Both the position numbers and the translations under genes were made by a program. A model generated the notes under the pieces. The model did no database searches. It saw only the letters and a program-made list of their open reading frames with translations, and was not told where the DNA came from. Below are positions 12,867 through 39,139 of a stretch of 64,000 nt of DNA, piece by piece. The first letter of the stretch is position 1. The number at the start of each line of letters is the position of its first letter. Origin of the DNA: a virus; IMG/VR virus record IMGVR_UViG_3300031603_000001, positions 1-64,000 of that record; one strand, written 5' to 3'.

Positions 12867-12877
12867 GAGTGTTTGAA

Positions 12878-19498: not shown

Positions 19499-19527
19499 CC
19501 CCCACCGAGTTTGATATCTAAACTGTT

Positions 19528-19565
19528 AGAGGCGAGACCGATATCCGGCTTCTCGCCTCTTTTTA
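19528..19565 (+). terminator. Rho-independent terminator between the two chaperone genes
   Basis: AGAGGCGAGA (19528-19537) pairs perfectly with TCTCGCCTCT (19551-19560). An inner CCG/CGG pairing can extend it, and TTTTT follows at 19560-19564. It lies 11 bp before the ATG of chaperone copy B. It should reduce readthrough into chaperone B and the giant genes, and so set copy A in excess. Confidence 0.9.
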
Positions 19566-19576
19566 TATAGGCTACC

Positions 19577-20203: not shown

Positions 20204-23200
20204 TGGACCCACAGGGTTACACCTCCAGGGATGAAGCGCTCCGCCTTTTAGGCGACACTCCTCAAAATTCAGCCGCCATGGCCGGAGGACTGGCCTCGGC
20301 TGCAAAAGCCATGGCTGGCTTTGCCCTTGCATTTACAGCAGTAACCAAAGGTATACCAGCAGTAGGAAGACTGGCTGTACGAACAATTGGAGCAACGTCA
20401 AGAGGCTCCGGGTCAGCCTGGCGTAGTGTACTCGGGACAGGACTAGCTTCCGCCAGAGAAGCCGCTAAGCGTACAAGCGGTGGCACGACTACAGAATTTC
20501 TAGCACACCTTACTGAAGCAAAGGGTGGCTCATTCCATAGAATGTTTTCCACTGTACATAAAGCTACATCAGGACAAGCTTATCAACAATATGTAACCGG
20601 TAGCCGGAAGGCTATGACACAGGCAGATAGGTGGAGTTTACTAAAGCCATCTCTAGCAGGAGGACGCGTACGATTCTCAGGACGAGCAGACTCCGCGGAT
20701 ATAGCTAAAGGTATAGGGGCAGCTTACTTCAAAGAAACAGCCATGGCACTCCCTGCCATGTACGCAATGGACAGAAAGTTTGGTGAGCAGAAGGATCATA
20801 TCTCATGGTACAACGTACCAGGCAGAGCGATGGACTTCGCAAAGTATATTCCAGAATATGTAGGGTTTGACGTAGCAGGACGTGGCGCAATGATGGGAGT
20901 AGGTATGGCTAAGGCCGGCCTACTAGCCAAGGCTAGGACATCCAGCGGAGAAGGATGGTTCCCTGACGCACTTAACAAAGTTTCTAAAGTAACAGAATGG
21001 TATAATAAGAGTGGTAACAAATTCAGAGGTGGCCTAGAGGCTGCGTCTGATCATATGCGTGCAGCTAAAGGCTCCTGGCAGAATAGAGTAGACGCCCGCG
21101 CACGGATAGACAATACCAATATATCGAGACTCAAGATAACAGGTCCTGGTACTCGAGAGGGTTGGCAGAGCGTATACCGTGAACAGTTAACCTCTGTAAC
21201 AGATGCACGTAAGAATGCACTTGACAGTAAAAGCCGCATGGAGCAGAGTGGCCTGTTCGAACAGCAGATAGACTCCCTTACTACTTCTAGAGAACAGATA
21301 GCAGACAATATGGGCTCTGCCTTACGTAAGAAGGACGAGTCAGAAGGCTTCATAAAAGATTTCACTAGAACACATTTTGCACAACCAGGACGCAGTGACT
21401 ACTCTTCAGGCACAGAACGTTTTATTATGCGCGCACTCGGTGTACGCAGGGCTAAGTTTGGCGACTTCGATGAAATCACACAAGGCAAGGTACGTAAACA
21501 ACTGAGACAATTCTCAGGTAAAGTATCCGAACTAGATGAATCTATAAAAGAACAAGATTTAGTAGATCTTATTGGAGCTGGTAAGCACGAGACCGATACT
21601 ACTAAGCTGAACTCCCTCCTTGCAAATCAGCATGTATACTATTCAAAATCAGCAGACAAAGTATTTGACTTACGTAAGTGGACACCAGGTGGTGTAATAG
21701 ATAATGCGTTCCAAAAGCTAGGCAGGAGTGGGTCACTGGGCTCAGCCATCTCTACACTGTATCCTGTACGATCAGCTATTGGCGCAGAGCTTCCTACTAT
21801 GATCAACGTAGACGACACCGTGCCTATCATGTTTGGGGGGTCGGCCAATATAACATCGGCAGGACGTTCTAGCTCCCAATGGATGGGAGAGGTTACGGGA
21901 GAAACCGGCTCGCTGCACAACGCATTCAATTTTACTCCTAAAGATGGAGCAAAAGGAAGTAGTGGATTAATACTACGTGATCCGGGTAAGCGAACTTACA
22001 CATTATACGGACGAGATGAAGGCAAGGGAGGCATGCATGCTTTAGCCCGTGACTTACGCCCAATGAGTTCCTTACTCTCCGAAAAGTCAGGCCGCCTGGT
22101 ATACGAGGACGCATCCTATATACCTAAGCAAAAGTTCAATGAGTTTAGAGGGCCGCTAGCTGGAGTTCGTAACTACATCTTCGACAAGACAGGACTTGGC
22201 CACCACACAGGTAATCAGCCTAGTCTCTTTGAGATGGCAGCTAACTTCATAAATAGAAGAGACCCTACCAAGCCTAACTATATATTGAACCCACAACGCT
22301 CCCGTATAGGGAAGTTGACTGGTGATAAAGCGTTATGGAAAACAAAGAGTCCTACAGAGAGGGCAGAATTATTAGCAGAGGCAAACGCCTCTCTAAGTAA
22401 TCTTCGTAGCGTTGAGAACGAAGCATACCGTAAAGTACTCCTACAAGACAAGGCAGTATATAAAGAACTATTAGTAGACAACGCAGGGAATCTGCACAAT
22501 TACAATGATGCAGCTGGTATAGGAGGTACTCCTCTTAGCGAGCCTGGGTTAACCACAGACCAGTTTGTCTATAAACTTATGCATGACCCTGTTGAGGCTA
22601 AGCGTGTAGCTACTCGGCTACTTAATCAATCAGATAATACTTATAAAAAGATAGCTAATGAACACGACCTACGGTCGTACATTGAGAATCAGATCATAGG
22701 AAAGCCTGATTCATTTCTAATTAAGTCTCACGGGCAAGACACCCCACACCTAAAGTTATTGAGATTCATTGGAGATGTTAATTCTAAAGCGGTAAGCCTT
22801 AAGTCCCACATGAATGACGACCCTGTCGCCAGAGCTGTACAAGCTGCTGTAAATAAGACAGGAAGATTCAGTGACAGAGATCTGGCAGGAGCAAAGCTAG
22901 CAGTAGAGTCACGTTTATTTAGAAACAAACATGCAGATGCAATTAAAAGCTTTAAGAATAACGTCAATGGCGAGTTAGTATTTAACGATGATACTACTAA
23001 CGGAATAGCAGCGCTACAACAACTACAGCACAGCACCGCTAACGATCAGTACCTGAAACAGACTCCTTTCTTTAAGAGGTTTGGTAAACCATCAGATGCA
23101 CGTTCCGAGCAGATGCAAACCATCAATACGCTCACAGATAAAACACCCTATGTGTTAGTAGGAGGCAAAAGCCCTGTAGGCATGGGCGCCACTAAATTCA

Positions 23201-26200
23201 TGGGACGTTGGGCATATGATACCTTTGGATCCACCATGGACCTTATGGGGCTAGGGTGGGATAGAGGTAAGTACCAAAGCTTCTGGCCTAAGCTAGGTAA
23301 TAAAGAGCATCAATCCGTTGGGGCACTGTTCGCAAAGCGAGCATTATTATTCGCAGGTATCGAAACCATGTACGACGCAGTGGACACATTCACAGACGTC
23401 ACCCCCATCTTCGCAGGCACAATGTTCGATGAGGGCATATCAACTGCAGGCGCAGACCACGCTGTACGTTTACGCATGGGAGCTGGTAAAGTGTATGACG
23501 CCATTGGTGTAACAGCCGCGGCTAAATACATGGAAGGCCTAATGCCTAAATCTTCCAAGATACTACCAGGTGCCGCAATGGGCTTCATGGCATACGGTGT
23601 GCCTGGGGCAGCAGTAGGCGCTGTGTTAAACTCTTATGTACAACCACAGTTATCTGAAGGGCCGCTATCATTTTTAGCAGCCATACCCATGGCCGCCCCT
23701 TTTGTAGCAGATCTCACTAAATCACACGAAGAGCTTCAGGACTTATACACCGGCCGTGACTTAACAGCTTGGCGTAAGGGAGCAGGCTGGACCTTGGGTA
23801 CAACACCAATCGAAGGCGGTCGTGTAGACTCGCTGGTACCTAACTGGTACGCACGTATGAAATCAAGTGCCGATACCACTGCGGTTCAATACGGGTCTAG
23901 ACTAGAGAAGTTCATATTCAAAGACAGAGCATTCATTGACTTCTCCCTCGGTGATCTCATAGATCCCCAGTACCTAACACGTAAACATTATTACGATCGC
24001 CCGTACGTAGAACCGGATGTTCCATTCAGCGAAATGCCTTTGATTGGACCAACCATTGGTACTGCCATAGGAAAGATGTACAACGCCCTTCACCCTCTTG
24101 GCAGTAACAAACTTATGCATCTAGATGAAGCTCGTAGAAACATGGCAAGCGGTGTATCAGGTGCAGGAACTGGTGCCCACGAGAGTGGCATGCTAGCGGG
24201 GTTTGGAGAATACACTGGTGTATTTGGTGAGTTTGATATGGGAACACAGGTACTACCTGGCCTAGGGCTTATTAGTGACGAGTACGTAAACAGATCTTCG
24301 TCTCTACGTGCGGCGGCAGGCGAACAAGTGTACCGTGGATTTATCGAGCCTGCAGGATTATCAGGGTTCCTGACATCAACAGCTATGTGGGGAGGTAATG
24401 AGCCTTTCTCAGATGAAGCATACCTGGAAAGCTCAAGCTCTATCGATTCAACCACACGCTCTCTGTGGGACCGTAACCTTGGTGATTTACTACTAACTAA
24501 TGAGGGGTTACGTAGACTGTACCCGCGTCCACGTACCTCATTTGATAAAGTCAACCCTATTAATAACTTGATGCCTGGCTGGATGCCAGAAGAGTACCGT
24601 ACTGGTGACCCCTACTGTCTGACATCTAAATCAGAGGTTGAGATCATTAGTGGTATCAAACGCGCAGATGAAGTACAAGTAGGCGATCTTATACGCACGT
24701 CATCAGGTAGGTACACACCAGTAGCAGAAGTAATACCACGTAAGATCAGTGAAAAAGTGTACACCATCAAGCTGAAGGAATCGGATGCTACAATTCAAGT
24801 TACGGGTGACCACCCATTCCTAATTAACTCAGGCAACAGATACCAACAGGCTAAGCTCCTGAAGAAGGAAGACAGCATTGTATACCCATTACGCGACCTG
24901 ACCACAGTGCAGCCTTACATCGTACCAGCAGAGGGCAAGAGTGGCGCAATCATGCTAACAGGTGGAGTAGCCTTAGCCCTTGGTATACTAGTGAAGTATG
25001 GTATATTATTTGATGACACTATCTTACTAAGAGACTGTCCTGTCGCACTAGATGAACTTAAGTTCATATTCAAAGAGCACCTTAACTGTTACATTACGAA
25101 GTCCTTCACCATTGACAGACTGAGTGTAGTATCAGTATTCAAGCAGCTGCTTAAGTACGGGATCCCGGATAGCTTCTACAAAGTAGGAACATACGTCTTC
25201 CTACAGTTCGCAAAACATTTTATGATACCATCCGAGGATGGAGAACTACAGTTTACATTCCCAACACGTTCCATGGCGTACCAGGCCTGGAGTATCTTTG
25301 CCCAAGACAAGCTATTGACTGAGCTCACGCTTAATTCATTACACGTGAGAGGAAGCTCGGCATCAGTGATACACTACATGCTCACAAATATCCCAATCAA
25401 TTATTCACTAGAGGACGAGGACAGAGTACGACCAAGGACAGCTCTCAACAATAAAACCTTATGGATGTCCATTGAATGGGTCCGTAGGGACGATTATACC
25501 GGCACAGTGTATGGATTCTCAGTAGACACTGATGATAGCTTCTGTGTACTACACGCTTGTACTCACAACACGAAGAAGCCATTCGGAGAATACATCCTTC
25601 CCGGTGCAGGCTATGAAGCAGGTCACGACATCACAGTTGATTACCCAACTGGAGGTTCGCGCCTAGGTTACAATCCATACGACCAGGCCCTAAGTATGGT
25701 AGGCTTAACATCTATTGATGACGACGAGACCCTCGAGATCCTTGAAGGCGGAACAGCTATTCACCGTATGGTCCAGCACGCACTCAAAGCACAGAACTCA
25801 CGTGTTAAAACTGAAGCACTAGTTACTGATCCAGAACACCGCATATCATCTTATGTTGATGTTGTGCTGCCTAAGGACTTTAGTGGCCAAGAAGTGCCTC
25901 TTGAAGTAAAGACAATTAATCCTTTGGGGTTCCAACGCCTTACTAAGCCTAAGTATAAGAACTCGGTACAGCTTAATGCCTACATGCATATGATGGGCGT
26001 TAACAAAGGCCGCATGATGTACGTTAACCGGGAAGATCCTACCCAGGTTAAAACGTATGACACATATTACAGCGAGAAGATGTGGCAAGAGACTGTGTCC
26101 AACCTGGACCAAGCGCGTACCATGGCGGACAGCATGTCCAAAGAAGGTTATGGGACTAACTCCGCTGGTTACAGTTACACAGATCGATTCGAAGTGTTAC

Positions 26201-27663
26201 TCTCAGCAGCACCATTTGGGAAAGAATTTAGAGAGACCACTCAGCTAGTAGGGGAACAAGCAGAGGCAGGTTTATTATCCGATGAACAGCTCGACCGTAT
26301 AAAGATGCTAAAGAGCAAAGCTGTTGGTATCATCAGTAAATACGAGATGTACGACAAGCGATTCAAAGGTATAGGCTGGATAGCACCTGATGGTGATTAC
26401 AAATCATACAATATGAACCACCATATCAAAGAAGCTGCAGCGTATAGTATGCCGGAACGTGTAGCCGGTGCCGCCTGGGAACACTTAACAAGCTACAGAT
26501 CTTACCTACACACTAAGCTCTTTGGTGTATACACTCCCGAAGAGACTTATGAAAACGAAGTAATTTCAGGTAAGTCTTTTCAATCCTGGGGAGCACCAAT
26601 AGAAGGACTGGTAAAACCATGGCTACGTAACCTTGCGGCAGCTGAAGGTCCTATACAGGGAGCCATGTCTTACGGTACAGCAGGTGCGGTACTTGGAGGA
26701 CCATTCGGTGCGGCAGTAGGAACAGTAGCAGGAGCTACCTATGGAGCAGCCCATGGCTTGTACAGAAAAGTATCAGGAACTTCATATAGGTCAGATAACT
26801 TCCAAACCATGGATAAGTACGCAGAGTACTTCGACGTACTTAAGTACGATAAAGCGTCCCGCATGTACGCGGCAACACAGGATCCTCGTTACTTAAATCA
26901 GATGTCCCGTACGGCTGTAGGTTATAATATTTACGAGTCAGATCCAGAGACCCTGAGCGATAACGCTAGCTATGCTTTCCAAGCCGCGGCTATCCAGGGC
27001 AACCCTAATCAGGGGCACCACAGTCCTTGGAACGGAACAGATGTACAGGAAGACCTAGGGTTTGACACCACATTTAATCTAGGGCAATCCTTTGGATCAG
27101 TCCCCTACTGGGATAGACCTTTCTACAAAGCATTTCTTAACACTACTGACCCTAACGATAGGCAACGTATCTTAGAGAAAGTAGATGTATCGATGGCACG
27201 TGTCTTAGCTAAGGCCTGGAATGACCCGGAGCTGCGAACAGAGGCCCTGGCATTCGACTCCGAAGACTACTTTAAAAAGTTTAATAGACCTGATGCGTCT
27301 GACAGTGTTATGCATCCACTGGCCAACCAAGGCTTATTCGAGATGAAAACCCTGGATGCTGCAGGGGAGGATTCTCATGATTATGGACTAGGATGGAGAG
27401 ACCAGGTTAAAGAAGCTGAGCGCTCACTAGTAGTCCCGCGGTCCATTGATATCAACGGTGCGTCTACATACGGTGCACTCAAAGAGCTAGACCCAGGCGA
27501 GCTGCAAGCAGTCATATCACAACAACTCATGATGTCAGGAATTGATTTCAAACTTGACGTGACGGCCACACCATCTAATAGAGGGGACACTGTTGTACGT
27601 TTCCACGTAGAGATCCAAAGAGATTCAGCACGAGAGATATCAAAGAAGAGTAATGGCAGATAA
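20203..27663 (+). CDS. Giant tape-measure-position protein with intein and PD-(D/E)XK nuclease domain
   Basis: 2486 residues (2168 after predicted splicing). Directly follows the chaperones, the tape-measure position. The N-terminus (about 28-60) is Ala/Gly hydrophobic. Residues about 1115-1165 and 2153-2187 are hydrophobic glycine-zipper stretches (GTAGAVLGGPFGAAVG type) suited to membrane insertion. An intein occupies Cys1472-Asn1789. The C-extein contains a Cas4/RecB-like PD-(D/E)XK signature: His1854, Glu1871, Asp1886, Glu1901-Val-Lys1903, Gln1923-x3-Tyr1927. No long coiled-coil measure region is obvious, which is atypical for a pure tape measure. Inference: a tail-lumen protein that may enter the cell, with a nuclease cargo. 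Arg AGA and Ile ATA codons are frequent, unlike the capsid gene. The stop overlaps the next gene by 11 bp. Confidence 0.75.
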   Translation: MDPQGYTSRDEALRLLGDTPQNSAAMAGGLASAAKAMAGFALAFTAVTKGIPAVGRLAVRTIGATSRGSGSAWRSVLGTGLASAREAAKRTSGGTTTEFLAHLTEAKGGSFHRMFSTVHKATSGQAYQQYVTGSRKAMTQADRWSLLKPSLAGGRVRFSGRADSADIAKGIGAAYFKETAMALPAMYAMDRKFGEQKDHISWYNVPGRAMDFAKYIPEYVGFDVAGRGAMMGVGMAKAGLLAKARTSSGEGWFPDALNKVSKVTEWYNKSGNKFRGGLEAASDHMRAAKGSWQNRVDARARIDNTNISRLKITGPGTREGWQSVYREQLTSVTDARKNALDSKSRMEQSGLFEQQIDSLTTSREQIADNMGSALRKKDESEGFIKDFTRTHFAQPGRSDYSSGTERFIMRALGVRRAKFGDFDEITQGKVRKQLRQFSGKVSELDESIKEQDLVDLIGAGKHETDTTKLNSLLANQHVYYSKSADKVFDLRKWTPGGVIDNAFQKLGRSGSLGSAISTLYPVRSAIGAELPTMINVDDTVPIMFGGSANITSAGRSSSQWMGEVTGETGSLHNAFNFTPKDGAKGSSGLILRDPGKRTYTLYGRDEGKGGMHALARDLRPMSSLLSEKSGRLVYEDASYIPKQKFNEFRGPLAGVRNYIFDKTGLGHHTGNQPSLFEMAANFINRRDPTKPNYILNPQRSRIGKLTGDKALWKTKSPTERAELLAEANASLSNLRSVENEAYRKVLLQDKAVYKELLVDNAGNLHNYNDAAGIGGTPLSEPGLTTDQFVYKLMHDPVEAKRVATRLLNQSDNTYKKIANEHDLRSYIENQIIGKPDSFLIKSHGQDTPHLKLLRFIGDVNSKAVSLKSHMNDDPVARAVQAAVNKTGRFSDRDLAGAKLAVESRLFRNKHADAIKSFKNNVNGELVFNDDTTNGIAALQQLQHSTANDQYLKQTPFFKRFGKPSDARSEQMQTINTLTDKTPYVLVGGKSPVGMGATKFMGRWAYDTFGSTMDLMGLGWDRGKYQSFWPKLGNKEHQSVGALFAKRALLFAGIETMYDAVDTFTDVTPIFAGTMFDEGISTAGADHAVRLRMGAGKVYDAIGVTAAAKYMEGLMPKSSKILPGAAMGFMAYGVPGAAVGAVLNSYVQPQLSEGPLSFLAAIPMAAPFVADLTKSHEELQDLYTGRDLTAWRKGAGWTLGTTPIEGGRVDSLVPNWYARMKSSADTTAVQYGSRLEKFIFKDRAFIDFSLGDLIDPQYLTRKHYYDRPYVEPDVPFSEMPLIGPTIGTAIGKMYNALHPLGSNKLMHLDEARRNMASGVSGAGTGAHESGMLAGFGEYTGVFGEFDMGTQVLPGLGLISDEYVNRSSSLRAAAGEQVYRGFIEPAGLSGFLTSTAMWGGNEPFSDEAYLESSSSIDSTTRSLWDRNLGDLLLTNEGLRRLYPRPRTSFDKVNPINNLMPGWMPEEYRTGDPYCLTSKSEVEIISGIKRADEVQVGDLIRTSSGRYTPVAEVIPRKISEKVYTIKLKESDATIQVTGDHPFLINSGNRYQQAKLLKKEDSIVYPLRDLTTVQPYIVPAEGKSGAIMLTGGVALALGILVKYGILFDDTILLRDCPVALDELKFIFKEHLNCYITKSFTIDRLSVVSVFKQLLKYGIPDSFYKVGTYVFLQFAKHFMIPSEDGELQFTFPTRSMAYQAWSIFAQDKLLTELTLNSLHVRGSSASVIHYMLTNIPINYSLEDEDRVRPRTALNNKTLWMSIEWVRRDDYTGTVYGFSVDTDDSFCVLHACTHNTKKPFGEYILPGAGYEAGHDITVDYPTGGSRLGYNPYDQALSMVGLTSIDDDETLEILEGGTAIHRMVQHALKAQNSRVKTEALVTDPEHRISSYVDVVLPKDFSGQEVPLEVKTINPLGFQRLTKPKYKNSVQLNAYMHMMGVNKGRMMYVNREDPTQVKTYDTYYSEKMWQETVSNLDQARTMADSMSKEGYGTNSAGYSYTDRFEVLLSAAPFGKEFRETTQLVGEQAEAGLLSDEQLDRIKMLKSKAVGIISKYEMYDKRFKGIGWIAPDGDYKSYNMNHHIKEAAAYSMPERVAGAAWEHLTSYRSYLHTKLFGVYTPEETYENEVISGKSFQSWGAPIEGLVKPWLRNLAAAEGPIQGAMSYGTAGAVLGGPFGAAVGTVAGATYGAAHGLYRKVSGTSYRSDNFQTMDKYAEYFDVLKYDKASRMYAATQDPRYLNQMSRTAVGYNIYESDPETLSDNASYAFQAAAIQGNPNQGHHSPWNGTDVQEDLGFDTTFNLGQSFGSVPYWDRPFYKAFLNTTDPNDRQRILEKVDVSMARVLAKAWNDPELRTEALAFDSEDYFKKFNRPDASDSVMHPLANQGLFEMKTLDAAGEDSHDYGLGWRDQVKEAERSLVVPRSIDINGASTYGALKELDPGELQAVISQQLMMSGIDFKLDVTATPSNRGDTVVRFHVEIQRDSAREISKKSNGR
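24616..25569 (+). other. Intein (318 aa) with degenerate LAGLIDADG endonuclease
   Basis: Begins at Cys1472 (Tyr|CLTSKSEVEI, block A) and ends at His1788-Asn1789 followed by extein Thr1790, the required splice residues. Block B is Thr1534-Gly-Asp-His1537. Block F/G is VYGFSVDTDDSF ... THN. The 220 residues between carry two LAGLIDADG-like helices: LALGILVKYG (1591-1600), where the catalytic acid position is Tyr1599, and FAKHFMIPSEDG (1669-1680), which keeps Asp1679. Splicing should therefore be active, but the homing endonuclease is probably dead. The insertion lies about 60 residues before the nuclease core. Confidence 0.92.
25741..25983 (+). other. PD-(D/E)XK (Cas4/RecB-like) nuclease core within giant protein
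   Basis: Within 80 codons: GGTAIH with His1854, KTEALV with Glu1871, SYVDVV with Asp1886, LEVKT with Glu1901 and Lys1903, and QLNAY with Gln1923 and Tyr1927. Order and spacing are those of RecB/Cas4-type exonuclease domains, with every expected residue present. I see no iron-sulphur cysteine cluster, so it is closer to simple RecB-like domains than to Cas4 itself. Confidence 0.85.
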
Positions 27664-30600
27664 AACCAAAGATGCCCAAGACACCGCGTTATCGGCATTA
27701 CTAAGCCTACCAACGCTACTCGGTATTGTGAAAGCAGCACCAACGGTTGTTGATGCCCTAAGCCAATTCTCCACCTACCTCAATAAGAACACTACTGAGT
27801 CAGTAAATAGTGTATTAAATTCCTTCCTAGAACAATCCGCTGACGCGCCATACGTTCGTACAGCCGACACCTCTATGGTCAAGGCTGCGCAGAAAGCTAT
27901 AGAAAGTACTAAGCAACAGCTGGTACACGAGCAGCGGCAACGGCTTGGTGTATCTAACGCAGAAATAGCAGATGGTACCAAAAGTAAATGGCGTGCTATA
28001 AGCCAAGCAATTAGTAACAACCCTTCACGTAAAGGGTACGGGACCACTATCATCTCAGGAGAAGGGGTATCTTCTTCCATAGAAATTAACAACCTCTATG
28101 ATATGATGGCCAATGGATTTTCCAGCGCTAATCACCCTATTGCTCCCTTCCGAAGACCTGACCAAGCGGCCCCAGGTACCGCCTTCCTTAATAAGATGGA
28201 CAAGCATTTTCCTGGATCCCAGGCACAGTATGGCACAGTGGGAAGTATACGACCTGCTGCTGCCCTTGCTTTTGTACAAGCACACCAACGTGGGTATGGC
28301 TATGGCCCTACCAATCAAATCAGACTCGGTAATTACTCCGAAGCTGCAGTCGAAGAGCACCTCGGTGAACTTGCCGGCGAGCTGGACAATGTACATAAAG
28401 CCGCACTATTGGGAGACCAACGCGCACAACGAGTGATGCGTGATACATATAAAAACCTTCAGAAAAGTGTAAGCCCTACTGAGCAAAGAGTAACTAGCTT
28501 CAGCGCAGATATCCAGGTACGTCTTGAAAAGACAAAAAGTATATCATTACAATCCTCAGCTAATATAGAAACATGGCTCCGTGTAGGAACGGAAGGCAGC
28601 TCAGCTGCTAGGGTAAGAGACCTAGCATCTAAAACTTTATACGGACGTATCGGACATCCCGAACTGTACACGCAGCTCAATGATCCTGTATACCGCAGTG
28701 CTAAAATCGGTGACCAATTAAACAGATACCGTGCTATTCTGCAGGAGGTTAAAGCAAGCTCAGCCGGCGCTACTGGTCCAGAGATGGAAGCCATAGACGC
28801 CATTGAGAAGACCATCCGTGCCCAGAATTCGAAGATGCGAAACATGCAGCTTGAGATTGCAGGAATCACATATGATAACGGAGGCCTTACTCAGCAAGCG
28901 CTTGAGTTCACAATCAGCAGTAATGGTAAGAACAAGTCCATGCACTTGCAGCCTATTTCCTGGATGGTACCTGTCACTACACAAGGGTACATATCACGTG
29001 GCCCAGGAGCTATACCTGATGTAACTATTCTAAATCACGCAGGACTGTACGGTTCCAATGCACGCAACTTGAAGGACGCAGGGGACATGGCCCTCATGGA
29101 TAACGCTAAGATGTTTGGCAAACTCCTAAATGATATCCGTGATAACAGAATGAGTGAAGAAGAGATCCGCAGAGTAGTAAGTAGAGCCTCCTCTAAATCA
29201 ACGGCTTATACTGTACCACGTACCTATACAGCTAAAGATGTAATGAATAGAACAATGGTTCAATTTGATGAACATGATTTCTATTTAAACAGACAGAGTA
29301 AGGATAACTTCCGACGTGTAATTGAAGGATCTAAAGGAATAGACCTACTCCGTACAGGCGGGGATGCTATTCTTTACGATACAGAGTACGGCTCAGGCCT
29401 TAGCAGGCGTACTGCTACCCCCCAAGAAGTAACACGTTCCTTAGCTACGGAGACGTACGAGCACGGTCTTCTGTACATGGACACTGCCGCCGATAGACTA
29501 TTAGCAGCACCAGAACCAGGTAGTCTGAACGCTGTACCAACAGGCAGCCAGGCTAGGCACAATATGGAAATGTGGCTACGTACTCACGGTACAAGTGCAA
29601 GCGAAGTAGTTGAATGGAAACGTAAAGCTCGTTTAAATGGTTCAACAGGTAAAGTAGCACGCAGAGCTATAGCCCTTATGGGCAAATGGGAAGAGGAATA
29701 CTTACACAGGGATGGACGTTCTCGCCAATCATTCTTCTTCACACAGGAAGGCCCTGCATTTGATGTACCAATCTTACGTAATACCTTACAGCAGCTGAGT
29801 GCCAATGGTATTGGAGAACGTGAATTAAGAAAAGAGTTCGGTCCATTATACGACAGACTATTCGCAGGAATAAATAATAGACACGCGGTGGCTGATGTAC
29901 TGAGCGACTCGTACAGACACGCTAACGCCATGTCAATCTTTCGTGTACTGAACCCAAAACAACCAGTCTCAGAGGGCGCCCAAAGTATGTTCACATTCTA
30001 TTATGGAATGAGCACACTAGAGCTTGAGAAGACAGTAGGGATGGCTACATCAGAAACAGCCTGGAAAGATAAGACAATTATCAACAGAGTGTTTGGTAAG
30101 AAAGGCCCTACACCTAAACAGCTTGAGAGTGTCAAATACATACTAAAGACTATACGTGATGACAACCTAGTTGGAAAAACTGGACCGATACATGGCCACG
30201 CTGCGCAGTTTGATGTAACTATGCTGCGTTACATCCTTACTGGTATGCAAAAGCAAGTAGGGAACCTTAGCGCTAAAGAACTGGCTGGTATAAATACAGT
30301 TGCAACAAGAGCAGAGACCTTGTACCAAAGAAGCAGTGCTTCCTGGACGTCAGGGCCTAACTTTATACAATCAAACAGGGACCGCTTTGACCCATACGCA
30401 CCGCAGACCGCTAGTGGCGCACTCAGCGTATCATTAACATCTACTTCTAAGACACAAGCCTCTCGTCTAAAAGGAACATTACTTCACCTAGAGAAAGTGC
30501 TACCACTTGGTGCACTCAATAACTTTGGTCGTGAAAAGTATCAATTCGCAGCGGGTAGGGTTCTAAATCCTATGGCAGGCAGCAACACCTATAAGGGTAA

Positions 30601-33600
30601 GAAACTCACTACTGCTGTAGGGTACGGACAACTACAGACTACAGCGGCAGCTATAGAACTAGAGTTTGAAACACTAGCTAATACCCTAGGGAACGACGCC
30701 CCTCCAGAACTACTACGTGCCATGGAAGAGATGACAGCTGATAAAGAAGCTGGTAACCTCAACCTTCCAAAACTATTTGCTAAGATGAATGCAATCAAGA
30801 GTAGAGTAGGCCATACCTCTGTAATAACAATGATTGACTACCTACCAGAAGGTTTCGCGTACACAGAAGAGTCCGGTTCTATTATACAGGATCAACTTCT
30901 TCCTTATTTTGCCAGTTATGCCAAAGAATCCAAACACACCACGTATTTTAACACTAAGTATACTGCAGCCCAAATAGGAACAGATGAAGGCATGGCCAAG
31001 TTCCTCAGTAAACTCAAGTTTCACAAAGGTATACAATACGAAATAAACAAGAAGCTATCTGATAAGACCTTAGCTATATCCCAACCTGTAGCTGGTAAAT
31101 TCTCCCTTGAACTGATGGGAATGCACGGGGCGTTTGACGAAGCACAGCGCTTTGTAGAAAACTCAGGCACACCCCCTCCATCCGCTGTATTAGCAGGCGA
31201 AGCATTAGTCACATCCGACACCTCAGGACTAGGGTCGCTATATGCATTCGGCCCGGAGTACGATCACCAAGTACCGGGGTTCCCCTCTAAAATCACTATC
31301 GATACAAACACAGGCGAGATATCAATCGGGCTACACCACGTAGAGCTAGACAGCCTTGGAGGTAAAACCCAAACAGATGGAAAAGTAACAAAGCAGAGTA
31401 ACACAGGACTATCTGGACGGGTAATGGGGACACTAGGAAACCCCAAGTACACTAGAGGATATACACTGGATCCTTTTGTAGGAGCAGCGCAGGGTGGTAA
31501 ATATGGTGGAAGTAGAAATGAAACGGCAGCAGCCTTACTTAAACAAGTAGACCGTATCAGTACCAAATGGGTAATGTACGATAACCTGAGTATAGTAGAG
31601 CAAGAGCGGCGAGCAAATAAGATATGGACTGACCTTCTTGGCGATAAGGCTGCGGACATAGACTTCAGCCACACAACAATTACTACTCCTAACGGCGATC
31701 GTCCTATACTTGTGACAATACTTCCTGACCGTGCAGAGATGGCAGTTAAGCAAAACTACAAACTAGGAAAGCTCGAAGAGATACTACGCAGAGAAGGCCT
31801 GACCTACGACTACGTACAGAGAAGATTCAAAGAGAACATCGATCGTCTAAAACTAAGTGACCCAGGCGGACGATGGACTGCAGCTATTACTCAGCTGAAC
31901 CAATCACTAGAGCGTGATATTAACACCAGCAAAGCAGGTTCTACTGAGTATGCTAACCTGGTACGAGTCCAGGCTAACATAGGAAATCCAAACGAAGCCG
32001 CTCCATTAGATCTAGTCAGCTTAGTGCATGGCATGGGTAAGAGCGCTCAGCATTGGGGATTACGAGCACTCGGTACAAGGTCAACTAGTAGTAGTGTGGC
32101 AGATTTCTGGATCAAGTTCAGTAGAGCAGAGACTCTTTCTGGATTTCCTAATATCACACCAAGACTGCTTGGTACAACTGCAAACATATTATTACAATCA
32201 TTCGACTTAGCTACTCGCACCAAAAAAGGCGGAGCAGGTCCAGCAGATTTCAACGTCATGGCGGGCTTCCTGTCAGGGCAAGCAGGTGTAAACCATGTTA
32301 ACATGTGGAATGAAAACGCTATTGGCGATACCCTCTTAGATACACAATTACTCAACGAATTCTACCTGAATAAGCGTGGAGTAATACCGGATACACTGGA
32401 CATAAAAGGGCTACCTAATCCTAAGAAGATAGGAATTACCTCAGCATCCGTACTAGACGTCACCGAGGAACTTGAGATCCTAGGCAGCCTACAAAAACAT
32501 GTAGACTTCGACGATCCTAATTTCCACAGCATGGGCCGTAATGAACGTTCACATTACCTACAAGGAAAGTTTGGAAAGAAGCCATCTGACGATTTCTTAC
32601 ACAACTTACAACTCGCTAAAGACCAACGAGAAACTGTATGGTACGCTGACCGGGAATGGTTACATAGAGCTAAGCTTTTAAAACCAAGAGGACCTGGTGG
32701 TAATCGATTCATACGTTATGATGCCCCCACACTTACTCAGCTATCTAAAGGCTTCGATATACATGGTGGCGGAAGTTGGCAGACACAGATAGCGCGGGCA
32801 TTAGATTCTAATGGTGCTGACTCAATTAAAGCAGTAGGATACAACGGCAAGACTGTTATACTAGACAGTCTAAAGAAACGACTGATTGATGCTAAACTTA
32901 TTGACGGAAATGGTAGACTACAGTTTGAATTTGATGTTAAGGATTTATTAGAGTCACAGATTGAGAAATTAGGCAGTAATACCGGTGGCGATGCCGCTAA
33001 GCACAAAGAACTTCTACAAGCTCTGCTGCGTCAAGTAGATGAAGCTTCTGTAACCAAAGACCATTTTGTACTTCCTAGCATAGGAGGCGTACAAGCTCCT
33101 TACGCTTCAGGAGATCGTGTACTATTCTCAGGATTAATGAAAGACACTCAGGGCACACTGCAGGCTTTCGGCAAGCTTGATAGCATGCGTATTGATTTAA
33201 CAATGGACACCGCTACCTCCAAATACCGTAAGTACCGAAAAGGAAAAGGCGGAATACACGAAGCTGCTATTATAGACATGGGAATAGATTCGGTAGTAGC
33301 TGATATTAAACGTAACGCTATGGAAGTCTCCGGTAGAGTTATGAATACCTGGACCAAGATAGGTACGGCGGGGTTCCAGCAAGCTAACTTCAGAGCAGCA
33401 GCTGGTACCACGACAATGGCATGGGGCAAGCTCCAAAATTCAATGACACTTGTACCGGCTCTTGAACAAGTGTACTCCAAGATAGGTACTTCTGATTTCG
33501 TTAACACATCCTACGCACTTCCCGACTTCTTGAACGTATCAGACAAGTCCCCCTTCAAACTAGACACCTGGTTAAGTAACCTCAGCAAGGGTAACAAAGT

Positions 33601-35659
33601 ATTTGCACCCCAAGGAGGAACAGGGAGGGATCTAGTACTACAGACAAAAGGGTTTGGTCTAGGAGAAAGTCCAATATCCTATCAGTCAGCCGTCGACTTA
33701 CTTCAGGAGCTAAAACAAACAGGGCAATTAGGTGTATCAGACGAGGCAGCTGCAGGATGGCTGCGTGGAGAAACTGGCCGAAGAATGGGCCGCAATAGAT
33801 CTCCTGATGCAGTACAAGGTCAAGTACTAATCGGCCAACTATACGTACAGCCGGATGAATTATGGAAAGCTGCGGACTCCTTAGGTGCTCCTTACGTATC
33901 TAACTCAGCGGTATACGTAGATCGCGTTGCCATGAAGTTCATGCGTGGTGATCAGGACGGTGACCTTGCAGCACTGCTAAACATGGGCGGGTTTATTGAT
34001 TCAGAAACGGGACAGATAGGGCCTAAAGGCAGCGCTTCCCGTAATCTTACAGGTGGAATCTCAGTATCAGAAGCAACTGAAAAGATGGCCTTGGCACATT
34101 CATCGTACTTAGCTAAGTGGGAAGAACTAGAACGGCGAAGAAAAGGAATTGGACGAGCAGCCCCGGGTGATGTGTACTTTGCAGGCACAGTGAACCAGGA
34201 TGGTAGAGAGTTATTCCTACATAAAGATCCTACTAAACATCTCACCATGACTGCTAGCCTACGGGAAACACTCCCGGAAGGCCTACTTTCTGATGTTATC
34301 CAGATAGACGATCCTGTACAAACAAGTGTACAGCACCTTACCCAGAAATCCTTTACACCTATAATTGGTGGGTACGTTAAAGGTGCTATCGCCATGGCGT
34401 ATGGAGGAAGGTTAGGACTACTAAACAGATTAGAAGATGAAATAGCAGGATCTCCAGGCGCATTCGACACACTACTCGAGAAGAATAACCTCGGAGGAAT
34501 CTACGGACGTACCTTGACTAGTGGCGCATATCTGAAATCTATGGGCACACTCAATACAGTGCATCCAAACCTATTAAATCAAACTGGACACGAGCTTGTA
34601 GGAAATGCCATGTCAGCTATGATGCAAGAGGGTGGTATAACAAAGATCAACACTAACCCAGTAGCAGGCCTCGTCACGTTGATGTCTCATATGCGTAACA
34701 TCAAAACAGCTATGGGTACTCCTCAATTTGATGAAGCTACTAAATTCCTTGCATATATGGATGATCACCCCGACTTTGAGGGTATGAGTATACTCCATCA
34801 GTTACGAGACCGCCCAGCCTCACAGTACAGCCAAGTAGAGAATGTACAACTTCGGCAGACAGCTTACGAATTAGCCAATGCGTATGGTATAGCAACCAAT
34901 ACACTAGAAGCTACTGCTAAAATAAACCAAGCCCAATTCCTAGAAACAATAGGAGAAAAGAAGAACAAAGGCAAGATTGCTGAAATGCTTGATACTATAC
35001 ACACTAGTAGGTTTATTGGAGACATGGATAGGCAAGCTGCTAGCGGGCCTACTTCAGAAATACAATCACTAGTTGCAGGTAATGACGGCTTTACCACAGC
35101 CTTTAGATCAACCCTCACTCACTCTATGCGTTCCTTAGGTATGCACAATAATACTACAGAAAACTTAGTAGCAGGCATGATGGGAGGCATAGGTAGCACA
35201 ACAACTATGCGTATGCGCTCGGCTGGTAGAATAATGACAGAGACCCTTAAAGAGAACGTCGGGCGTTTGTTTAATTTCATAGACTCATCAACTGTACGTA
35301 AACTATCCGGACGTATAGGTACTGTTGCTGCAGCACTTACGTTCTTTGATCCAAACACAGGTTCCATGATGATAGGAGAGGGTGAAGGACGTGGCGGAGA
35401 ATACAGTGACATACCATCTGGTAAGGAAGTGATGAGAGCTTTCAAGAACCGCAAGACTGTTAGAACTAAAGAAGCCAACCCCTTCTTGCAAGATAAGCTA
35501 GCACGTCTCTCATTTGCTAACCCTAGAAATGAACGTAGAACTGTCAGAGGGCAACTGGTACCAGAGGCGCCAAAGTATGAATACAACAACCATACACGCA
35601 AATTCAATAAATTTAATATTAGTGACCATCTCCGCAGAGCTGGTGCGATAATGCAATGA
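27653..35659 (+). CDS. Giant virion-region protein with DxDGD motif: candidate two-barrel RNA polymerase
   Basis: 2668 residues, second largest-protein gene of the tail block, placed between the tape-measure position and the hub. Asp2100-Gln-Asp2102-Gly-Asp2104 in MRGDQDGDLAALL matches the metal-binding D-x-D-G-D of beta-prime, YonO and crAss-like phage polymerases. Arg2049-Ser-Pro2051, about 50 residues before it, matches the R-x-P preceding the same barrel. A helical region follows (SEATEKMALAHSSYLAKWEE). Further upstream are exonuclease-like motifs (YDTEYGSG at 575-582; FDVPIL at 703-708; GHAAQFD at 848-854). I could not place the first barrel with its two lysines. If correct it would be a virion-packaged polymerase for early transcription, as in crAss-like phages. 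No membrane segment is obvious. Overlaps both neighbours. Confidence 0.55.
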   Translation: MADKTKDAQDTALSALLSLPTLLGIVKAAPTVVDALSQFSTYLNKNTTESVNSVLNSFLEQSADAPYVRTADTSMVKAAQKAIESTKQQLVHEQRQRLGVSNAEIADGTKSKWRAISQAISNNPSRKGYGTTIISGEGVSSSIEINNLYDMMANGFSSANHPIAPFRRPDQAAPGTAFLNKMDKHFPGSQAQYGTVGSIRPAAALAFVQAHQRGYGYGPTNQIRLGNYSEAAVEEHLGELAGELDNVHKAALLGDQRAQRVMRDTYKNLQKSVSPTEQRVTSFSADIQVRLEKTKSISLQSSANIETWLRVGTEGSSAARVRDLASKTLYGRIGHPELYTQLNDPVYRSAKIGDQLNRYRAILQEVKASSAGATGPEMEAIDAIEKTIRAQNSKMRNMQLEIAGITYDNGGLTQQALEFTISSNGKNKSMHLQPISWMVPVTTQGYISRGPGAIPDVTILNHAGLYGSNARNLKDAGDMALMDNAKMFGKLLNDIRDNRMSEEEIRRVVSRASSKSTAYTVPRTYTAKDVMNRTMVQFDEHDFYLNRQSKDNFRRVIEGSKGIDLLRTGGDAILYDTEYGSGLSRRTATPQEVTRSLATETYEHGLLYMDTAADRLLAAPEPGSLNAVPTGSQARHNMEMWLRTHGTSASEVVEWKRKARLNGSTGKVARRAIALMGKWEEEYLHRDGRSRQSFFFTQEGPAFDVPILRNTLQQLSANGIGERELRKEFGPLYDRLFAGINNRHAVADVLSDSYRHANAMSIFRVLNPKQPVSEGAQSMFTFYYGMSTLELEKTVGMATSETAWKDKTIINRVFGKKGPTPKQLESVKYILKTIRDDNLVGKTGPIHGHAAQFDVTMLRYILTGMQKQVGNLSAKELAGINTVATRAETLYQRSSASWTSGPNFIQSNRDRFDPYAPQTASGALSVSLTSTSKTQASRLKGTLLHLEKVLPLGALNNFGREKYQFAAGRVLNPMAGSNTYKGKKLTTAVGYGQLQTTAAAIELEFETLANTLGNDAPPELLRAMEEMTADKEAGNLNLPKLFAKMNAIKSRVGHTSVITMIDYLPEGFAYTEESGSIIQDQLLPYFASYAKESKHTTYFNTKYTAAQIGTDEGMAKFLSKLKFHKGIQYEINKKLSDKTLAISQPVAGKFSLELMGMHGAFDEAQRFVENSGTPPPSAVLAGEALVTSDTSGLGSLYAFGPEYDHQVPGFPSKITIDTNTGEISIGLHHVELDSLGGKTQTDGKVTKQSNTGLSGRVMGTLGNPKYTRGYTLDPFVGAAQGGKYGGSRNETAAALLKQVDRISTKWVMYDNLSIVEQERRANKIWTDLLGDKAADIDFSHTTITTPNGDRPILVTILPDRAEMAVKQNYKLGKLEEILRREGLTYDYVQRRFKENIDRLKLSDPGGRWTAAITQLNQSLERDINTSKAGSTEYANLVRVQANIGNPNEAAPLDLVSLVHGMGKSAQHWGLRALGTRSTSSSVADFWIKFSRAETLSGFPNITPRLLGTTANILLQSFDLATRTKKGGAGPADFNVMAGFLSGQAGVNHVNMWNENAIGDTLLDTQLLNEFYLNKRGVIPDTLDIKGLPNPKKIGITSASVLDVTEELEILGSLQKHVDFDDPNFHSMGRNERSHYLQGKFGKKPSDDFLHNLQLAKDQRETVWYADREWLHRAKLLKPRGPGGNRFIRYDAPTLTQLSKGFDIHGGGSWQTQIARALDSNGADSIKAVGYNGKTVILDSLKKRLIDAKLIDGNGRLQFEFDVKDLLESQIEKLGSNTGGDAAKHKELLQALLRQVDEASVTKDHFVLPSIGGVQAPYASGDRVLFSGLMKDTQGTLQAFGKLDSMRIDLTMDTATSKYRKYRKGKGGIHEAAIIDMGIDSVVADIKRNAMEVSGRVMNTWTKIGTAGFQQANFRAAAGTTTMAWGKLQNSMTLVPALEQVYSKIGTSDFVNTSYALPDFLNVSDKSPFKLDTWLSNLSKGNKVFAPQGGTGRDLVLQTKGFGLGESPISYQSAVDLLQELKQTGQLGVSDEAAAGWLRGETGRRMGRNRSPDAVQGQVLIGQLYVQPDELWKAADSLGAPYVSNSAVYVDRVAMKFMRGDQDGDLAALLNMGGFIDSETGQIGPKGSASRNLTGGISVSEATEKMALAHSSYLAKWEELERRRKGIGRAAPGDVYFAGTVNQDGRELFLHKDPTKHLTMTASLRETLPEGLLSDVIQIDDPVQTSVQHLTQKSFTPIIGGYVKGAIAMAYGGRLGLLNRLEDEIAGSPGAFDTLLEKNNLGGIYGRTLTSGAYLKSMGTLNTVHPNLLNQTGHELVGNAMSAMMQEGGITKINTNPVAGLVTLMSHMRNIKTAMGTPQFDEATKFLAYMDDHPDFEGMSILHQLRDRPASQYSQVENVQLRQTAYELANAYGIATNTLEATAKINQAQFLETIGEKKNKGKIAEMLDTIHTSRFIGDMDRQAASGPTSEIQSLVAGNDGFTTAFRSTLTHSMRSLGMHNNTTENLVAGMMGGIGSTTTMRMRSAGRIMTETLKENVGRLFNFIDSSTVRKLSGRIGTVAAALTFFDPNTGSMMIGEGEGRGGEYSDIPSGKEVMRAFKNRKTVRTKEANPFLQDKLARLSFANPRNERRTVRGQLVPEAPKYEYNNHTRKFNKFNISDHLRRAGAIMQ
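33797..33964 (+). other. R-x-P ... D-x-D-G-D polymerase-like motif region
   Basis: Codons 2049-2104 of the giant protein: Arg-Ser-Pro, then a beta-rich stretch (GQVLIGQLYVQPDE; SAVYVDRVAMKFM) ending in Gly-Asp-Gln-Asp-Gly-Asp. Spacing is about 50 residues, against about 40 in bacterial beta-prime. The residues after the Asp triad (Leu, Ala, Ala, Leu) do not fit an EF-hand. Confidence 0.6.
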
Positions 35660-35829
35660 TAGTAATTAACCTAGCACTGAAGAATATCCCTTACGAACTC
35701 GATATCCAACAGATACTCGATCACATCAGACTTATACTAATAGAACAATATGGCGTAGACCCAGAGTTCGTCGTCAACGATCATGATCTAGTTAACATAC
35801 TAAGACTTTCCGGATTACAAAATGGCTAA
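35656..35829 (+). CDS. 57-residue protein between giant gene and hub gene
   Basis: ATG at 35656 overlaps the giant gene stop (ATGA), and TAA 35827-35829 overlaps the next ATG by 8 bp. The chain of overlaps and the otherwise unexplained 160-bp gap support a real gene. The protein (starting MIVINLALKNIPYEL, then DIQQILDHIRLILIEQ) is amphipathic helical with an acidic C-terminal half. No family recognised. A small tail-assembly helper is possible. Confidence 0.7.
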   Translation: MIVINLALKNIPYELDIQQILDHIRLILIEQYGVDPEFVVNDHDLVNILRLSGLQNG

Positions 35830-38800
35830 TCTAAAATACACAGATATACTAGACGGTATCGCTACATTCGAATCTTCTACTACAGCCAGCGGGGCTACTA
35901 AAGTAAGTACACTCACAGGCAAGTACTATGGAATCTATCAAATAGACCGTGCTAACCAGACAAGAGTACTAGGTCTGGACGCTGAGGGCAAATACCTACC
36001 AAGGTACAAAGGATTCGGACTGAACTCTACAGTAGCGGCTGATTTAGCTAATCGAATACAAGTCGGCACAACCAATGCCACAGCATTAACTACAAATGAA
36101 CAAAGACTTGTATGGCTAATATGGCATACAATAGAAGCAGTATATCAACTGTATAAATTTGATGCACGTAAGTGGTCAACAGATGTCGACATAGATGGAC
36201 GCAGAATAGCTTTATCTAACATAAGTCCAGCAACAGCAGCACGTGCTAACGACGCTTTGTGGGATATACTCTGCAGTATTACAGCACGTTGTCCCGCGGG
36301 TGGGCACAAAACAGGCCCTACACATCTGCAGACTATCAAACAGCTACTAGGAGACCCATTAGATCCAAACAAAGCAGGTCCTGGCGCAGTTGGTAAATAT
36401 GGGCCGTCTGTGTTTAGATACATGGTCACAGCAAGGTACCCAATAGCACCTAATAATAACGGCTATGGCCAGTTATTAGGGTACACGAAGAGGCACAGTA
36501 AAGGTGCATTAAAAGTGTCTGATCCGGCTACAGAATCTAAAGCTGACTGGAGTGTATCAAGTCTGGACATTTACCAAACATTAGCAAAAGAACTAACAGA
36601 GTTAAACGACACTGTAGGTCTATTCTCAGCTTTTGAATTCGGGTACAAATTCATTAACAAACTATTCAGAGTTGATCTAGCGACTCTTAACAACGTGCAC
36701 GGTGAGCAAGCCAGTGAAGTGGCATATGACACACGCACGCTAGAAGGTATATACTCGTACATACCTACTATAGAAATGACTAAGAGTACACCAGGGCTTC
36801 CACTGTATATAGGCGACTTGGGTTTCATAACTCCTCCAACAGCTATACGGTACAACGCGGCCGGGCAGTCCTACGCTTTTGAAGCACTACGCACCAGTAG
36901 CAACCCTATTGTACCTGTTAGCACGCAAAGACCAAGTATATCAATCACCCTGTACCTACATGGACAGGATGAAGTAAACAATAAACTACGCCCATTACTC
37001 GCTATGGCTAAACGTACCCCTTTTACACAAGTACGAAGTGGGATACTGTACAACATGTTAGTAGACCGCATACTTGCACAAGAACTCGAAGATATAGAGG
37101 ATAAAGCACAAGTACCTATCCCTGTTATAATCGATAACGTTTCTTTCCATACAGTCCCAGGGTACCCTGACGCTGTGCAGGTGTTCTTAACACTACGCTT
37201 CTTCAATGTATTCCCATACGGAATGATGTATTCTTATAATCCACAGACTCCCGATGAGATATCGGAAACCGTTAATTACAAAATCAATGAAGTCCTACGC
37301 CACTCTAGGGCCTTCAACCCCATCAGCTCTGCTGGGGAAACATTCGTTTCAGCCGACGGCTCACGAGTTAAGCTGCCCAAAGAGCAGCTCCCTCAATCCT
37401 TGACTGCTAATCTACACGATTCCCCTGAGTTTATACATTTCTACAGAGAACAACTAGCTGATTACACAACTCCTATGAGTTACGTACAATTGCCCGCTAA
37501 ATGGCCTGCCTATATACCAGACGGCGCGGCACAGACTACCCTCACATACAACACTATTACTAAACTAAATAGTCCATTCGTTGACGCACTCGAGTGGGTG
37601 CAAGGGCAGAAGGATGAAATATCTAGAGTCACTAGGATATTTGACTGGCTATACACTGACCCCAGAGGGCTGAAAACCTATAAGAATAGTAGTGACCCTG
37701 CTGCAATTAAAATACTGTTCTGGGAAAAGCTAGCAAGTCTTATTGATGCTACCCATAACCTAAAGGAGGGCGTCAGATTAATAAGATCAGAAGCCAATAG
37801 ACTAGTACTAGACGTACTAGACTCTACGGATTCACAAGACTTTACCTCAGCCGATTACCAACTATTTGCAGAAGAACTTGTCAACAACCCCTTCGTAGGC
37901 ATACCGACTGATGAAGTACAACACACTAGCACTTTACACGATGTGTTCGAAGCAGCCGTAGGCGACAAGGTAGAGAATATAACTACTGCCACCTACAAAC
38001 GCTGGCTAGAGAACCTTATAAACAGGGACAGTCCTATTCTCGCTACAGTAGAGGATCTACTTACTGTCAAAGTCAAAGCCTTATTTGGCAGCACTGAGAC
38101 AGCACCACGTACTGTGGCATTAACTTCCCAAAAGACGCCTGGCCCTACAAACACAGAGCTCGCGTCTGTACTGACGTCTATTAGCATATCGTACGGAAAC
38201 AAACTAGTCCCGATAGACATATTACAATACAAAACACCAACGTTTCAACATACTGGTATGGGACAGTTCGGTATGAGTATGATTATACAAACAAATGACC
38301 CAGGTATGATATCCACCATTAATGATATTAGACTAACACAAGCCGCCTTATCTAATCCTAATGAGATGGGAGGAGGCCGAGATCGTATAACTATATCGGA
38401 CCCACTACTTAACTCGTTTGGTTTACAGTATTTCAGTATTCGTAATACTCAAATCAAAACTATGACAGGCGCTGTGGGTTGGTACGAAATAGCAATTGAT
38501 ACATTACATAATCCAAAGACATTACACATGGCTGAGGACATTAAATCACTTACCACTAGCGCTAAAGCAGTGGTGCGTAGGTTGACCCCTTTGTTCTTTC
38601 CAGCAGAAATTGATATTGATCATCTTAGAGGACCAGACGGAGGAGTAACTCAGCAACTAGATGCCGGAAGGCTCTCTGTAGTTGGGACAGAAGGCTGGGT
38701 GTATGCTGACCATGAGTATCTAACTACTGATTACCAATTCACGATAGCCGACAGCCTGGTAGCAGTTTCCCCAGGTCAAAGTGATAATGACATTCAAATT

Positions 38801-39139
38801 ACTAAATCATTAAATGCGATACTGGAGCCTATACGTTCCGTACTTTTAGACTGGTCTACTGTGCTAGTGGCTGGAGGGGCAACTCACTTCAAAGATATGA
38901 TTAAGATAATGGCCAAACGTTACATGACATTCTCCGCCCAATCTGCAGTATTATGGATGGCGCAGCATACCAGCGCTACTCTCCCGGACGCTAAGTACAT
39001 AGACTTAACAGACCCAGAAGTCTCCGGGGTATCCACTGCCACGGCAGTTGCACTACATGTGCATCGCAAAACATTTATGCACACACTCTTTACGAACGCG
39101 CAGTTCAATAAGCAAATGAAGATTGCTAAACAACCTTAA
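35822..39139 (+). CDS. Baseplate/hub protein with N-terminal lytic transglycosylase-like domain
   Basis: 1105 residues. The N-terminus carries a lysozyme-superfamily signature: Glu17-Ser18 (ATFESS) as candidate catalytic acid, and Gly37-Ile-Tyr-Gln40-Ile41 as the GxxQI motif, within about 150 residues. This would open a local hole in peptidoglycan during tail penetration. Residues about 330-480 and 770-900 are two similar beta domains (Y-x-GDLGFITPP ... ISITLYLHGQDE; ISISYGNKLVPI ... MSMIIQTNDPG), probably a duplicated hub or LysM-adaptor fold. It sits before the late-control-D-like hub gene. Exact place in the baseplate is inferred. Confidence 0.6.
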   Translation: MANLKYTDILDGIATFESSTTASGATKVSTLTGKYYGIYQIDRANQTRVLGLDAEGKYLPRYKGFGLNSTVAADLANRIQVGTTNATALTTNEQRLVWLIWHTIEAVYQLYKFDARKWSTDVDIDGRRIALSNISPATAARANDALWDILCSITARCPAGGHKTGPTHLQTIKQLLGDPLDPNKAGPGAVGKYGPSVFRYMVTARYPIAPNNNGYGQLLGYTKRHSKGALKVSDPATESKADWSVSSLDIYQTLAKELTELNDTVGLFSAFEFGYKFINKLFRVDLATLNNVHGEQASEVAYDTRTLEGIYSYIPTIEMTKSTPGLPLYIGDLGFITPPTAIRYNAAGQSYAFEALRTSSNPIVPVSTQRPSISITLYLHGQDEVNNKLRPLLAMAKRTPFTQVRSGILYNMLVDRILAQELEDIEDKAQVPIPVIIDNVSFHTVPGYPDAVQVFLTLRFFNVFPYGMMYSYNPQTPDEISETVNYKINEVLRHSRAFNPISSAGETFVSADGSRVKLPKEQLPQSLTANLHDSPEFIHFYREQLADYTTPMSYVQLPAKWPAYIPDGAAQTTLTYNTITKLNSPFVDALEWVQGQKDEISRVTRIFDWLYTDPRGLKTYKNSSDPAAIKILFWEKLASLIDATHNLKEGVRLIRSEANRLVLDVLDSTDSQDFTSADYQLFAEELVNNPFVGIPTDEVQHTSTLHDVFEAAVGDKVENITTATYKRWLENLINRDSPILATVEDLLTVKVKALFGSTETAPRTVALTSQKTPGPTNTELASVLTSISISYGNKLVPIDILQYKTPTFQHTGMGQFGMSMIIQTNDPGMISTINDIRLTQAALSNPNEMGGGRDRITISDPLLNSFGLQYFSIRNTQIKTMTGAVGWYEIAIDTLHNPKTLHMAEDIKSLTTSAKAVVRRLTPLFFPAEIDIDHLRGPDGGVTQQLDAGRLSVVGTEGWVYADHEYLTTDYQFTIADSLVAVSPGQSDNDIQITKSLNAILEPIRSVLLDWSTVLVAGGATHFKDMIKIMAKRYMTFSAQSAVLWMAQHTSATLPDAKYIDLTDPEVSGVSTATAVALHVHRKTFMHTLFTNAQFNKQMKIAKQP

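Follow-up and report, generated by a model that had tools for sequence, protein, structure and literature searches.

Injected RNA polymerases that transcribe early genes as the phage genome enters the cell have been described in crAss-like phages (PMC7886860) and in Thermus phage P23-45, where gp96 carries out this role (PMC10770324). P23-45 gp96 is a single-chain two-barrel polymerase with the motif DFDGD, situated at the N-terminus of a giant protein of 5002 aa that occupies the tape-measure slot of a phage with a long, non-contractile tail (PMC10770324). In Crassvirales, gp66 of phi14:2 (gp077 in the record) is a giant single-chain virion polymerase encoded among giant virion proteins, and its motif reads RIP...DFDID. 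The polymerases of the jumbo phages phiKZ and AR9 are built on the same catalytic barrel, but consist of several subunits. YonO and gp99 of phage 0305phi8-36, both RDR-like, are again single-chain two-barrel enzymes. In the tail genes of 0305phi8-36, the slot of interest here was assigned to a tape measure protein (orf146/gp146) on grounds of tail length and position (PMC2147016).

The window analysed here covers the opening 64 kb of a virus record 198 kb long (G000). Its tail block contains genes for a major head protein, a contractile sheath, tail tube paralogues, two genes in the tail-chaperone position, a 2486-aa protein, a giant protein termed P0001, and hub and baseplate proteins. The P0001 gene lies in the tape-measure slot, flanked directly by the gene for the conserved, virion-type protein of 2486 aa on one side and by the baseplate hub genes on the other. 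P0001 is very probably a single-chain RNA polymerase of the two-barrel superfamily (double-psi beta-barrels) in the contractile tail, belonging to the lineage of 0305phi8-36, ME3, and KLEB27-3 and located in the slot of the 0305phi8-36 tape measure. The features of the locus are:

12869..15610, + strand, contractile tail sheath (PHROG 16991, E=2.7e-17)
19070..20203, + strand, two paralogous genes in the tail-chaperone position, 19070-19498 and 19577-20203 (homologues in relatives)
20203..27663, + strand, upstream partner protein of 2486 aa, with an embedded intein and Cas4/RecB-like nuclease (homologues adjoin the polymerase gene in relatives)
25732..26130, + strand, Cas4/RecB-like PD-(D/E)XK nuclease inside the upstream protein (PHROG Cas4-type exonuclease, E=4.3e-14)
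27653..35659, + strand, P0001, giant tail-block protein of 2668 aa (open reading frame)
29273..30262, + strand, DEDDh 3'-5' exonuclease-like domain of P0001, residues ~541-870 (motif set and profile of relatives)
32750..34852, + strand, predicted RNA polymerase core, residues ~1700-2400 (profile alignments and orthologue model; approximate limits, taken from orthologues)
33797..33805, + strand, R2049-S-P2051, equivalent to the RxP that precedes the catalytic loop of beta-prime (P2051 invariant in 17/17 aligned sequences)
33950..33964, + strand, predicted catalytic triad D2100-Q-D2102-G-D2104 (DxDxD in 24/24 orthologues)
34340..34420, + strand, putative bridge-helix-like segment T2235...G2239...G2251 (invariant in the window clade)
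35822..39139, + strand, first hub/baseplate gene, directly downstream of P0001 (homologues in relatives)
39150..43247, + strand, second hub/baseplate gene (PHROG 20474, E=4e-40; homologues in relatives)

The first-pass annotation of this DNA had reported Asp-Gln-Asp-Gly-Asp at residues 2100-2104 of a 2668-residue ORF, preceded by Arg-Ser-Pro about 50 residues upstream, in a virion with a contractile sheath. The motif is seen exactly as described: the segment MRGDQDGDLAALL is present in P0001 with aspartates at positions 2100, 2102, and 2104, and 48 residues separate it from R-S-P (2049-2051). The sheath is equally real, ORF 12869-15610 matching the PHROG tail sheath. From the N-terminus, P0001 comprises an N-terminal region, the DEDDh exonuclease, a long linker, the predicted two-barrel polymerase core, and a conserved C-terminal region. 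Unlike in P23-45 gp96, the polymerase occupies the C-terminal third of the chain, a DEDDh exonuclease is present, and the phage is contractile-tailed; BLAST detected no similarity between the two proteins. Unlike the phiKZ and AR9 enzymes, P0001 is one chain, and its DxDGD differs from the DFDID of phi14:2. The same annotation had also likened the size and location of P0001 to those of crAss-like virion polymerases. P0001 is not itself a crAss-like polymerase: tblastn returned no match in a phage collection that includes phi14:2, and the phage has a contractile sheath. A closer precedent is gp96 of P23-45, in which the polymerase is joined to a tape measure protein.

Queried directly, P0001 matched nothing significantly in Pfam, PHROGs, PDB sequences, annotated phages (tblastn), or IMG/VR peptide patterns, and relatives were therefore sought through the neighbouring genes. 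Searches with the hub, the upstream protein, and the terminase led to Bacillus phage KLEB27-3, Moorella phage MTATph1, and Acinetobacter phage ME3, all of the 0305phi8-36 lineage, the ME3 record itself citing homology to 0305phi8-36. Scans of IMG/VR with terminase and upstream-protein alignments added further relatives with a readable next gene. Altogether, 23 syntenic orthologues of P0001 were found, including KLEB27-3 gp034 (RYP...DYDGD) and ME3 gene 36, which is annotated as hypothetical; both are extremely diverged from P0001. In the loci of the relatives, a giant ORF with DxDxD stands between the conserved upstream protein and the hub. Homologues of the upstream protein adjoin the polymerase gene (E from 0 to 5e-7), a homologue of the first hub gene follows it directly in most relatives (E 8e-81 to 7e-4), and homologues of the tail-chaperone-position genes precede the same gene pair in MTATph1, KLEB27-3, and ME3. 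A scan of cellular genomes found no relative of the upstream protein.

The upstream protein also carries an intein at window positions 24616-25569, within ORF 20203-27663 (PF14890, E=2e-8). A further intein is present in the large terminase (G000:184930-187191, PF14890, E=6e-8), and the terminases of ME3 and KLEB27-3 have intein-like inserts at a different site. Beyond the window, on the minus strand of G000 at ~121-163 kb (L010-L012), ARAGORN reported 23 tRNA genes, 19 of them within one 20-kb stretch. The regions upstream of genes were also screened for a recurring promoter-like word; none exceeded the level in shuffled sequence, a negative that counts against the polymerase reading.

A motif in a single protein could be due to chance, and in a second ORF of the window's genome D-x-DGD likewise follows an RxP. 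Conservation across the orthologues settles the reality of the motif in P0001: DxDxD is kept in all 24 proteins (P0001 and its 23 orthologues), so that homologues lacking the Asp triad, which the first-pass annotation had named in advance as grounds for rejecting its reading, are absent from this set. An R-x-P located 34-52 residues before DxDxD occurs in 22 of the 24 proteins. As controls, 113 further ORFs from these loci, each 400 aa or longer, were examined, and 2 of them show the loose pattern. The two orthologues without a strict RxP have the variants RGKQP (L127) and LSLKEP (L132). It has to be considered whether DxDGD is a chance loop of calcium-binding type within a tail protein, given that such loops are common and that an isolated DFDGD is found elsewhere in the window. 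This explanation is barely credible and is already contradicted by the 24/24 conservation with RxP spacing, the polymerase-specific profile matches, and the fold match. The isolated DFDGD (SGASDFDGDAIRITQ) lies in ORF 6969-8381 (470 aa), just upstream of the major head protein gene; this ORF was rejected as a second polymerase because it has neither RxP nor a family match.

In a core alignment of 17 sequences, most of them 10-20% identical to the window protein, P2051, D2100, D2102, and D2104 are the only invariant residues. This pattern looks like the catalytic centre of a very fast-evolving family, to judge from sequence, and Yutin et al. reported that crAss-like polymerases are equally extremely diverged around DxDxD (PMC7886860). 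A polymerase fold retained only as a non-catalytic DNA-binding or structural scaffold might be suspected from the four relatives in which the fourth position of the motif varies (V, T, A, Q). Such a scaffold is highly improbable, as invariance in the core is confined to precisely the catalytic residues. Bridge-helix and trigger-loop segments are weak in P0001; where the window clade has its bridge-helix-like segment, clade C has IGxxSN, and an ISSKHG-like segment is also conserved in that clade.

The two-barrel polymerase reading proposed in the first-pass annotation is supported at the level of the family. When the family profiles A7, A6, and A9 were run against the PDB with hmmsearch, RNA polymerase largest subunits or their phage counterparts made up 15 of 16, 31 of 32, and 29 of 30 matches, respectively, always aligned at RxP...DxDGD. 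The best matches of the clade-C profile were phiKZ gp055 (E=1.4e-4) and RPB1 (E=1.3e-3), and the profile with 31 polymerase matches also recovered gp96 of P23-45, whose PDB entry is named 'tape tail measure protein' (8h2m, E=0.086). An AlphaFold model of the orthologue L167 (pLDDT 65, about 70-90 in the core) had 267 matches in the PDB at E<=0.001; RNA polymerases account for every one of the 50 listed (E from about 1e-5 to 1e-4, probability 1.00). Among viral models (BFVD), the third match of L167 was an ME3 protein, taken to be gene 36 because gene 36, in the same slot, carries REP...40...DHDQD. The L167 model also shows strands upstream of the catalytic barrel that may belong to a second barrel; an invariant lysine pair of the second barrel was sought among the family sequences, and none was found.

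For P0001 itself the evidence is of another kind. The window clade's own profile had no match in the PDB, and hhalign linked it weakly to the other clades (E=0.015 and 0.0028). The clade-A HMM matched L129 (E=9e-6 among 16 targets), full-length hhalign of P0001 against KLEB27-3 gp034 returned nothing, and with cross-clade HMMs P0001 and ME3 gene 36 were not significant within their own genomes. The structural comparison proposed by the first-pass annotation succeeded in part: the catalytic barrel fold was matched for the orthologue L167 only, and the AlphaFold model of the window core, built with 17 very diverged sequences, was uninformative (pLDDT 38). With a matchless clade profile, weak cross-clade links, this low-confidence model, and no located lysines, the claim for P0001 rests on orthology by synteny, the conserved motif, and the evidence from the family.

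The second enzymatic domain of the chain has the complete motif set of a DEDDh exonuclease, with Exo I at D576xE578, Exo II at D704, and Exo III at H849xxxxD854, and all five residues are invariant in the six proteins of the window clade. Taken alone, the window-clade profile of this domain gave no match. The profile of the domain from other clades matches exodeoxyribonuclease III and the exonuclease domains of Pol B in the PDB (best E=5.4e-4), the domain of one relative matches the Rv2179c-like exoribonuclease model, and MTATph1 CDS0027 passes the RNase_T (PF00929) cut-off. In MTATph1, the orthologous slot (L002 8931-14444, CDS0027-28) keeps a DnaQ-type exonuclease, and its gene has no polymerase match and no DxDxD; loss of the polymerase part is possible. 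Since MTATph1 keeps the exonuclease with no detected polymerase, the domain serves a purpose independent of the polymerase. A transposase gene follows directly. To our knowledge, no DNA-dependent RNA polymerase with a fused DEDDh exonuclease has been described, and a short literature search found none.

The location of the gene bears on whether the enzyme is packaged. Gene position and the label of KLEB27-3 gp034 suggest that P0001 is probably packaged, as a virion RNA polymerase; it is predicted to synthesize RNA. KLEB27-3 gp034 is annotated as 'structural protein', a label for which the record gives no basis. Alternatively, P0001 could be a polymerase homologue that is merely encoded in the tail block and acts as a non-structural, unpackaged enzyme. 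Such an arrangement has a parallel in the separate, non-virion YonO-like gp99 of 0305phi8-36 (PMC2147016, PMC7824862), encoded in the right arm, whereas P0001 is encoded in the tail block. It is nevertheless improbable: the relatives keep the order of tail-chaperone-position genes, conserved tail protein, polymerase, and hub, gp034 is labelled structural, and both crAss gp66 and gp96 of P23-45 are packaged enzymes whose genes lie in virion blocks (PMC7886860, PMC10770324).

An RDR/YonO-like second polymerase was observed on the contigs of two relatives, L154 (15376-16305) and L157 (207480-208163), with PF05183 at E=2.4e-10 and, weakly, 1.3e-4. By analogy, this suggests that these relatives may have a pair of virion and non-virion polymerases as in P23-45. 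The PF05183 (YonO/RDR) search found no match anywhere in G000; it also misses P23-45 and phi14:2 and is therefore insensitive to remote members.

A further reading is that P0001 is primarily the tape measure protein of the contractile tail, to which polymerase and exonuclease domains have been joined on the pattern of P23-45 gp96. Its slot is that of 0305phi8-36 gp146, which was assigned as a tape measure (PMC2147016), directly before the hub, and tail-chaperone-position genes lie upstream. The lengths of the orthologues, however, range from ~1.6 to 3.1 kaa, and the neighbouring protein of 2486 aa qualifies just as well as a tape measure candidate. This reading is possible but rather unlikely. 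A broader proposal is that polymerase and 3'-5' exonuclease are combined in one polypeptide, loaded in the contractile tail as the tape measure or in its place, so that a single molecule would serve tail-length control, genome entry, trimming of nucleic acids or proofreading of transcripts, and early transcription throughout the lineage. We advance this proposal as doubtful and speculative.

For P0001 as a tail-borne polymerase, the following mechanism is proposed. P0001 would be assembled in the tail and would probably pass into the host with the first DNA. Its three aspartates would bind Mg2+, and the injected enzyme would transcribe early genes during genome entry. The Cas4/RecB-like nuclease of the upstream tail-block protein, which is intact (H1854, D1886, E1901xK1903, and Q1923xxxY1927 are all invariant), may enter the host along with the polymerase. 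During injection, this nuclease and the DEDDh domain could then work with the polymerase on nucleic acid of the host or of the phage.

With regard to earlier work, Iyer et al. listed only the YonO-like gp99 for 0305phi8-36 (PMC7824862). A 2026 review of jumbo phages makes no mention of 0305phi8-36, YonO, or tape measure proteins, and the library searched contains no paper on KLEB27-3 or MTATph1. The survey of viral two-barrel polymerases in the supplement of the P23-45 paper may include some of these orthologues. Two of the relatives are cultured phages, so the claim is directly testable.

If the reading is true, a whole lineage of large contractile-tailed phages, comprising 0305phi8-36, ME3, KLEB27-3, and their metagenomic relatives, would possess a packaged RNA polymerase, which would explain how early genes could be read without the host enzyme. 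The tail-loaded polymerase would then not be peculiar to P23-45. The fused DEDDh exonuclease additionally poses a testable question: can a proofreading or trimming enzyme be built into an RNA polymerase?
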